From Promethearchaeota archaeon (GTDB lineage: Archaea; Asgardarchaeota; Lokiarchaeia; Sigyniarchaeales; SOKP01), in contig SHMU01000009.1 of NCBI GenBank assembly GCA_008080765.1, positions 1-43,197 of the forward strand: 43,197 bases of DNA, written 5' to 3'. Every line of letters starts with the position of its first letter. Position 1 is the stretch's first letter. A program made the position numbers and the translations under genes. Below are positions 1 to 38,194 of this stretch, piece after piece. The notes under the pieces were generated by a model that was not told the origin of the DNA, searched no databases, and saw nothing but the letters and a program-made list of their open reading frames with translations.

Positions 1-237
1 GACGTACGGCTTCACCTCGACAATGATGGAAAGGCTTTTTCTTCCCAATGCTATCACTCCTACCCTACGGAGTACCACGATAGCGGGAGACAGGGCAACG
101 GTCAGGTGCAAGAACTTGGCGTCAACCGAAGGTGTCATGACCACTCCATCGTAGCGGGATTTCTCCACGCTCAGTCTGGTAAACTAGGGCGTTCGTGTTG
201 ACACGAAGCCCATCCCTTTAGGGATGGGTAGTTCACT
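1..237 (+). mobile_element. 3' (right) end of an IS200/IS605-family (tnpB-type) element, truncated by window start; possible TnpB C-terminal tail to about 156, then guide-RNA-like region and terminal hairpins
   Basis: Open frame TYGFTSTMMERLF...TTPS* ending at about 156; hairpins TTCGTGT-TG-ACACGAA (192-207) and CATCCC-TTTA-GGGATG (211-226) followed by GGGTAGTTCACT; strong similarity to the reverse complement of 37127-37370. Confidence 0.7.
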
Positions 238-37034: not shown

Positions 37035-37126
37035 ATTAGGAGCAGTATTAACCATTTTATTAAAGTCAAAACATGCATATATTTTCAATATTATAATCTA
37101 TGAGTTAGAATGGATTCAAAAATTTA

Positions 37127-37508
37127 AGTGAACTACCCTCGCCTGAAGGCGAAGGCTCTGTGTGTCTACGGAGCTCTTAGTTCACCAGACTGAGCATGGA
37201 GAGATTCATGCTACGATGGATCGGTCATGAAACCTTCGGTTGCCGCCAAGCCCTTGCACCAGACTGTTGCTCTGCAATCGATGGTTAATAGCCCCGAAGG
37301 GTAGGGGTAGTGGCATCGGTTTAACAAGCCTTTCCATCATTGTCGAGGTGAAGTCGGATTCCTTACCTGCTCATGCGGCATGGATACGCACTACTCGATG
37401 AAGCCCCTTTGCGTGAAAACGGGCGGAGGAAGATTTACTCGAGGGAGTATACACTTCACGCAAAACGTCTGATTCCTCTCCCCCTTAAAAGGGGAGTGTT
37501 CTCAGACT
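37127..37508 (-). mobile_element. tnpB-less IS200/IS605-derived mini-element (MITE-like) with hairpin ends and guide-RNA-like core
   Basis: Right end AGTGAACTACCC with CGCC-TGAA-GGCG hairpin near 37140; left-end hairpin CTCCCC-cttaaaa-GGGGAG at 37478-37496; internal region similar to 1-237 (opposite strand). Confidence 0.7.
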
Positions 37509-37564
37509 AAATTTATAAAATAAGAACAGAAATTAATAAATAATAATAAAATGGAGGTTAAATA

Positions 37565-38194
37565 ATGGAATTTGAAAAACTTACTGAACTCTTAATCGAG
37601 TTAGAAGTTGATGATATTGAGGCAGCCGTAAAAGAGGCATTAGACGAGGGAAAGGACCCATTTAAAGTGCTAAATGCACTTACCAAGGGAATGGATGAAG
37701 TGGGACGGCGCTATGAAGCAAAAGAATATTATCTAACTGAACTGGTATTAGCAGGAGAAACAATGAAAGAAGCTTTCAAAGTATTAAAGCCCGCCTTAGC
37801 AGCTCAAGAAAACATAGAGAGCAAACCCAAAGTTATTTTAGCGACAGTTAAAGGTGACAATCACGATATCGGTAAAAATATTCTGGGCTCATTATTGTTG
37901 AGCTCCGGATTTGAAATCTACGACTTAGGTATGGATGTTGATGAGAATACTATTGTTGATAAAGTGAAAGAGACAGGTGCACAAATAGTTGCGCTAAGTT
38001 CTTTGCTCACGATGACCGTGGAACAAATCGAGGTGGTACATGAAGCCCTTCAAGAAGCCAATCTTCGTGATAAAGTTAAATTAATTGTTGGCGGAGCTCC
38101 CTTAAACGAAGATCTTGCGAAAAAATTGGGTGCAGACGATTTTGCCGAAGATGCTGTAGAGGGTGTAAATCACATAAAAGCACTGGCTCAATAA
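37565..38194 (+). CDS. Corrinoid (B12-binding) protein, MtaC/MtbC/MttC-like
   Basis: VKGDNHDIGKNILGSLLLSSGFEIYDLG (DxHxxG) and LSSLLTMTVEQIEVV; N-terminal methionine-synthase-cap-like helical domain; GGAGG upstream of ATG. Confidence 0.95.
   Translation: MEFEKLTELLIELEVDDIEAAVKEALDEGKDPFKVLNALTKGMDEVGRRYEAKEYYLTELVLAGETMKEAFKVLKPALAAQENIESKPKVILATVKGDNHDIGKNILGSLLLSSGFEIYDLGMDVDENTIVDKVKETGAQIVALSSLLTMTVEQIEVVHEALQEANLRDKVKLIVGGAPLNEDLAKKLGADDFAEDAVEGVNHIKALAQ

Follow-up and report, generated by a model that had tools for sequence, protein, structure and literature searches.

The window, i.e., the whole stretch of 43,197 nucleotides analyzed here, contains a compact repeat without a tnpB gene, which raises the question of what kind of element it represents and whether its RNA could serve a nuclease encoded elsewhere. 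An earlier note on this DNA had described IS200/IS605-type hairpins at both ends and suggested a stand-alone omega-RNA/PATE-like element which might guide a TnpB encoded elsewhere. The repeat, its hairpins and the lack of tnpB hold true, with the coordinates corrected from 37127-37508 to 37128-37514, and so does the reading as a nuclease-less, mobile, guide-RNA-like mini-element. The assignment to TnpB does not, since the RNA is a HEARO and the coding relatives carry iscB, by which a membership among TnpB omega RNAs or PATE-like elements is rejected. With the RNA being a HEARO, which is the omega RNA of IscB (PMC9755519), the finding moves from TnpB to IscB. The feature is almost certainly an iscB-less HEARO mobile element. 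In terms of identity and origin, it is very probably a MITE-like, non-autonomous element that descends from an IscB-bearing one of the IS200/IS605 class (ISC or OMEGA element). The genome in which it resides encodes Ras-family GTPases as well as an archaeal-type Rpb6, pointing to an Asgard archaeon (Promethearchaeota) as the probable host, and is rated 73% complete.

Structure and copies of the mini-element

In the window, two Rfam matches exceeded the cut-off, both of them HEARO, one on the plus strand (37128-37358), forming the first 231 nt of the mini-element, and one on the minus strand at the left margin (4-236; Table 1). The latter explains the similarity between 37128-37358 and 1-237, which had been noticed before. 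This similarity is real, as both regions are full-length HEARO, but the earlier note had placed it in the right-end half of the mini-element, which is the wrong way round for an IscB element: what the two have in common is the 5' portion next to the guide, which lies on the minus strand at 1-237. The view that no protein underlies the likeness proved right, because the covariance model recognizes both regions and the short, copy-specific reading frames rule out a coding explanation. Likewise, the open frames within the 387 bp are short, differ from copy to copy and include none of note, and the HNH endonuclease ORF which usually adjoins a HEARO and gave the family its name is absent.

The mini-element starts with GTGAAC at its left end, and its right end is set at 37514 because the following ATAAA belongs to the target, as deduced from a congener in which the sites of sister copies are vacant. 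The earlier note had considered the case that no other copies exist; a BLAST search of the genome recovered, far above chance, four full-length copies in four contexts (E 3e-199 to 3e-133, 87-100% identity), i.e., three besides the window copy, which are 87-91% identical to it, together with several partial relatives. After correction of the ends, the copies measure 387 (C9, the window), 387 (C20), 386 (C86) and 388 bp (C91). Uniform size, conserved ends and different contexts are what is expected of a MITE. A complete ISC element encodes IscB; as this ORF is missing, the mini-element is filed as a non-autonomous derivative and not as an ISC element proper. The iscB frame has been lost, while the hairpin structures at the two termini, the entire HEARO and its 3' extension have been kept. 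Pattern scans of collections of genome contigs and viral contigs gave no match to the core of the mini-element.

Table 1. Positions of the mini-element, its parts and neighbors in the window, and of related mini-elements in a sister species.
Feature	Position	Strand	Basis
iscB-less HEARO mini-element, 387 bp	37128-37514	+	four copies in the genome; vacant sites for two sister copies in congener G004
Predicted guide segment, 16 nt, GGATTCAAAAATTTAA, host DNA flanking the element on its left	37112-37127	+	directly 5' of the HEARO RNA; differs per copy
Left terminal hairpin (read in reverse, the transposase right end, hairpin plus TAGTTCAC)	37128-37157	+	sequence, compared with iscB copies and resident IS605 ends
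HEARO RNA (IscB omega RNA), full length	37128-37358	+	Rfam RF02033 1-211 of 211, 99.7 bits, E 1.8e-19; covariation of pairs in a set of 15 sequences
3' extension of the RNA past the Rfam model, small hairpin at its end	37359-37448	+	alignments; common to iscB-bearing copies and G067 elements
Right terminal structure, outer stem GTCTGA/TCAGAC enclosing inner hairpin CTCCCC...GGGGAG, short tail after	37467-37514	+	fold and alignment
ATAAA, target-derived 3' motif, predicted IscB TAM	37515-37519	+	11 of 11 elements, 3 of 3 vacant sites
Second HEARO/IscB element (type B), left part only, truncated at the contig end	1-237	-	HEARO at 4-236, 88.4 bits
Downstream co-oriented neighbor gene, methyltransferase cognate corrinoid protein	37565-38194	+	TIGR02370, E 2e-51, under the model's own cut-off
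tnpB-derived mini-elements of sister species G003	C68:27633-27944 and 10 further places (L111, L115, L118, L121, L123, L125, L127, L129)		

Measured against the gathering score of RF02033 (83 bits), the HEARO of three mini copies (window, C20 and C86) lies above the cut-off with 102.6, 99.7 (window) and 90.1 bits; that of C91 falls below it with 60.5 bits and is decayed. Across 15 copies from three genomes, 81.7% of the cells in Rfam pairs are paired, and changes on both sides of a pair occurred in 23 pairs and 77 cells; shuffles gave 29.7 ± 4.7 such cells, and slid controls no more than 15. In the 3' extension, covariation is weak and comprises just two pairs, and single-sequence folds of this part in the window copy are not clearly above shuffles. 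Within single copies, selection on the fold is not visible either: simulated random substitutions break about as many pairs as the actual differences from the consensus (P 0.18, 0.45, 0.26, and 0.92). The single mini copies may simply be decaying, and the RNA that they retain could be a passenger.

Insertion sites, target motif and predicted guide

Vacant sites were searched by querying the genomes of the genus with joined flanks. In the congener G004, element-free flanks were found at three loci, corresponding to two minis (C20 and C91) and an iscB copy (C46), which demonstrates insertion at these loci. An empty site, which the earlier note had proposed to look for, was seen for sister copies and not for the window copy itself. 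The sites of C20 and C91 are orthologous and lack a target duplication, with junctions aligned at about 75% identity, so that single-base precision is uncertain. The motif ATAAA follows all HEARO/IscB elements of which the right end could be read (11 of 11, including five right ends of the second IscB family described below), at a background of 0.0056 per position in the flanks. It is also present at the junctions of all three empty sites in G004, which rules out that it is part of the element.

The guide of an IscB omegaRNA comprises approximately 16-17 nt 5' of the scaffold, and the TAM is read in the target (PMC9640706). For OrufIscB, ATAAA was experimentally determined as the best TAM (PMC13180657). 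As in ISC elements, the predicted guide and TAM lie on the 5' and 3' side at the insertion junction, respectively. An empty site has the form of guide match followed by TAM, and in an occupied site the guide is followed by GTGAA; with the left flank as predicted guide and ATAAA as TAM, each copy therefore points at its own empty site. From this arrangement we infer that IscB would read ATAAA at these elements and that the left flank of the window copy would be used as a guide. Since tnpB-derived minis of the sister species G003 share the motif, it is probably the transposase that determines it, and the TAM of the nuclease would be matched to it; ATAAA could even serve the transposase alone as a target motif.

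Three insertions (G000 C86, L063; G000 C46, L062; G003 C68, L071) are located at apparent AAA TAA stop codons. The end of the inserted element restores the stop as AAG TGA, leaving the upstream protein unchanged. Joining the flanks of C86 and of C46 yields AAA TAA, and the C46 site in the congener is TTT AAA TAA. This placement is judged to follow from the ATAAA motif and the purging of harmful insertions, with no separate mechanism involved.

iscB-bearing relatives, transposases and elements in other genomes

Two relatives in the same genome, C15 and C46, align with the mini-element over its positions 1-316 and then run into an iscB reading frame, the alignment ending near the start of this ORF. 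Their right terminus has the layout of that of the mini-element with a different outer stem. A single frameshift divides the iscB of C15, the larger portion of which is an IscB according to NF040563 (E 8e-58), RRXRR and HNH, and the top PDB matches of the protein are IscB structures. C46 is internally deleted. RRXRR occurs in C15 and C46 alone in this genome, and a search for related loci with the IscB fragment of C15 found no relative. A complete and intact iscB was not among the assembled sequences of the 73% complete genome, as C15 is frameshifted, C46 deleted, and the type-B copies are split at contig ends.

These type-B copies belong to a second IscB. Five contigs start inside its C-terminal part; they are mutually similar, open in four of five cases and adjacent to ATAAA. 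The type-B HEARO is situated at four contig ends, among them window positions 1-237, and the copies in C126, C176, and C119 likewise break at contig ends. Such a pattern is characteristic of an element whose multiple copies were collapsed during assembly, and the second IscB family appears to be of this kind. Because five contigs carry the C-terminal part, open in four, a source of IscB in trans is likely, and so is the presence of an intact IscB in the genome. The RNA of the minis (type A) and the type-B RNA are 74-78% identical. In addition, weak HEARO matches of a different sequence type were detected at G000 C105:1238-1489 (L023; 44.5 bits) and C235:4189-4428 (L025; 30.6 bits), possibly representing another guide-RNA family.

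Copies of Y1 TnpA exist in the genome, one of them, in C50, without stops. The ends of the resident IS605 elements of ISHp608 type (C50, C17, and C165) were at first taken to be unrelated to the mini-element, which was dropped, as the latter read in reverse has the same layout, i.e., target motif, hairpin with foot sequence, and hairpin followed by TAGTTCA-. In this direction, the mini-element features TTTTAT beside the hairpin with the foot and TAGTTCAC after the other hairpin, where the resident IS605 have TTTTAC and TAGTTCAA or a variant of it. The foot and cleavage tetranucleotides, GAAG/TCAC in the mini-element and GAAT/TCAA (mostly TCAA) in the resident IS605, have changed together, which agrees with the known IS608 recognition code. 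No transposase with exactly the ends of the mini-element was found, those of the resident Y1 TnpA being related and not identical. A mobilization of the mini-element in trans by a Y1 TnpA is plausible from these ends. The window further holds, at its right contig end (42743-43197, minus strand), the C-terminal part of a TnpB present in high copy number, and many near-identical TnpB ends are located at contig ends of this genome.

HEARO was found in 3 of the 86 genomes of the class; owing to this patchy distribution, the elements are probably recent arrivals. G067, which belongs to another family of the same order, contains two iscB-less HEARO elements (C514 and C86 of G067). They share a breakpoint just past the iscB start region, unlike that of the window mini, and retain the whole HEARO including the 3' extension. 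In G012 (C258:1887-2101, L072), a solitary and well-conserved HEARO (122 bits) lies between a DUF3795 gene and a gene for a family-B DNA polymerase; an iscB is missing from its vicinity, and a right end is not obvious. The sister species G003 harbors at least 11 copies of a tnpB-derived mini-element of about 309 bp which are 90-97% identical. One parental element, with a TnpB of 398 aa, is located in G002:C101, and the right flank is ATAAAA in seven of the eight copies read.

Function, competing explanations and significance

With regard to function, an even chance is given to the explanation that the minis are plain MITEs, in which the terminal structures alone matter for movement by TnpA and the omega RNA is a passenger without guide function, left over from an internal deletion of iscB. 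The missing selection on pairs in individual copies, the decayed RNA of C91 and the lack of an assembled intact iscB fit this explanation. IS608-type TnpA needs just about 60 bp per end. Against a mere passenger speaks that approximately 320 bp of the HEARO side were kept, compared to about 60 bp of the other end, and that the mini-family of G067 with its other breakpoint also preserves the complete HEARO and 3' extension, although these are two cases only.

A chimeric element, to which an IscB element contributed the HEARO side and a tnpB-type element answering to the same transposase the right end, is rather unlikely; it would concern the origin alone and agree with either view of the function. 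The right end of the mini-element does not align with that of C15 or C46, yet over 34 nt it matches that of the tnpB-derived minis in G003, and the target motif is identical in both families. On the other hand, the parental iscB element of the mini lineage, which was not seen, may simply have had this right end, and short terminal hairpins can converge. Finally, that the RNA is a TnpB omega RNA after all is hardly conceivable: TnpB is abundant in the genome (79 matches), and the 309-bp tnpB-derived family of the congener G003 shares the motif on the ATAAA side and 88-89% identity over the 34 nt of the right hairpin, but the HEARO model is completely covered, and in the closest coding relatives the matching position is occupied by iscB.

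For the iscB-less HEARO element, a use of the RNA in trans by a resident IscB, in the past or at present, falls slightly short of an even chance; activity of the window copy today is unlikely. The mini-element would be moved in trans by a Y1 TnpA, and transcription from the flank would yield an RNA beginning with about 16 nt of host DNA. An IscB produced elsewhere in the genome might load this RNA, and the complex would cut the vacant allele (guide match, then ATAAA) and spare the occupied one (guide, then GTGAA). Cutting of the vacant allele would favor restoring or keeping the insertion. It is doubtful that the minis form a dispersed mobile guide set, obtaining a new host-derived guide with every insertion and served in trans by one resident IscB family, so that nuclease and guides would be separate mobile entities with one transposase class and one TAM.

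With the IscB OMEGA RNAs (HEARO) of ISC elements, the mini-element shares the RNA family, the guide in the 5' flank, the 3' TAM of ATAAA type and ends of the IS200/IS605 class (PMC9640706, PMC9755519); it differs in lacking the iscB ORF and in forming a short multi-copy family of uniform length. Non-autonomous MITEs or PATE-like elements of IS200/IS605 are comparable, being short, hairpin-ended and movable by Y1 TnpA in trans. To our knowledge, none of them is known to keep a complete IscB guide RNA. ISC elements, HEARO and IscB OMEGA were reportedly described in works of Weinberg from 2009, Kapitonov from 2016 and Altae-Tran from 2021, the last of which is said to have included stand-alone (trans) omega RNAs beside IscB systems, e.g., in Ktedonobacter racemifer. 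Like the minis, the latter are HEARO/omega RNA loci without an adjacent iscB, whereas the loci described here are shown to be mobile elements by their two ends, their vacant sites and a target motif, and they reside in an archaeal (probably Asgard) genome.

IscB is the likely ancestor of Cas9. If guide RNAs travel without their nuclease, this would plausibly form a stage on the way from transposon-bound OMEGA to guides separated from their effector, as in CRISPR-Cas9. The locus makes this idea testable by offering four copies with predicted guides, ATAAA as predicted TAM, a congener with vacant alleles and, for comparison, the tnpB-derived minis of a sister species.
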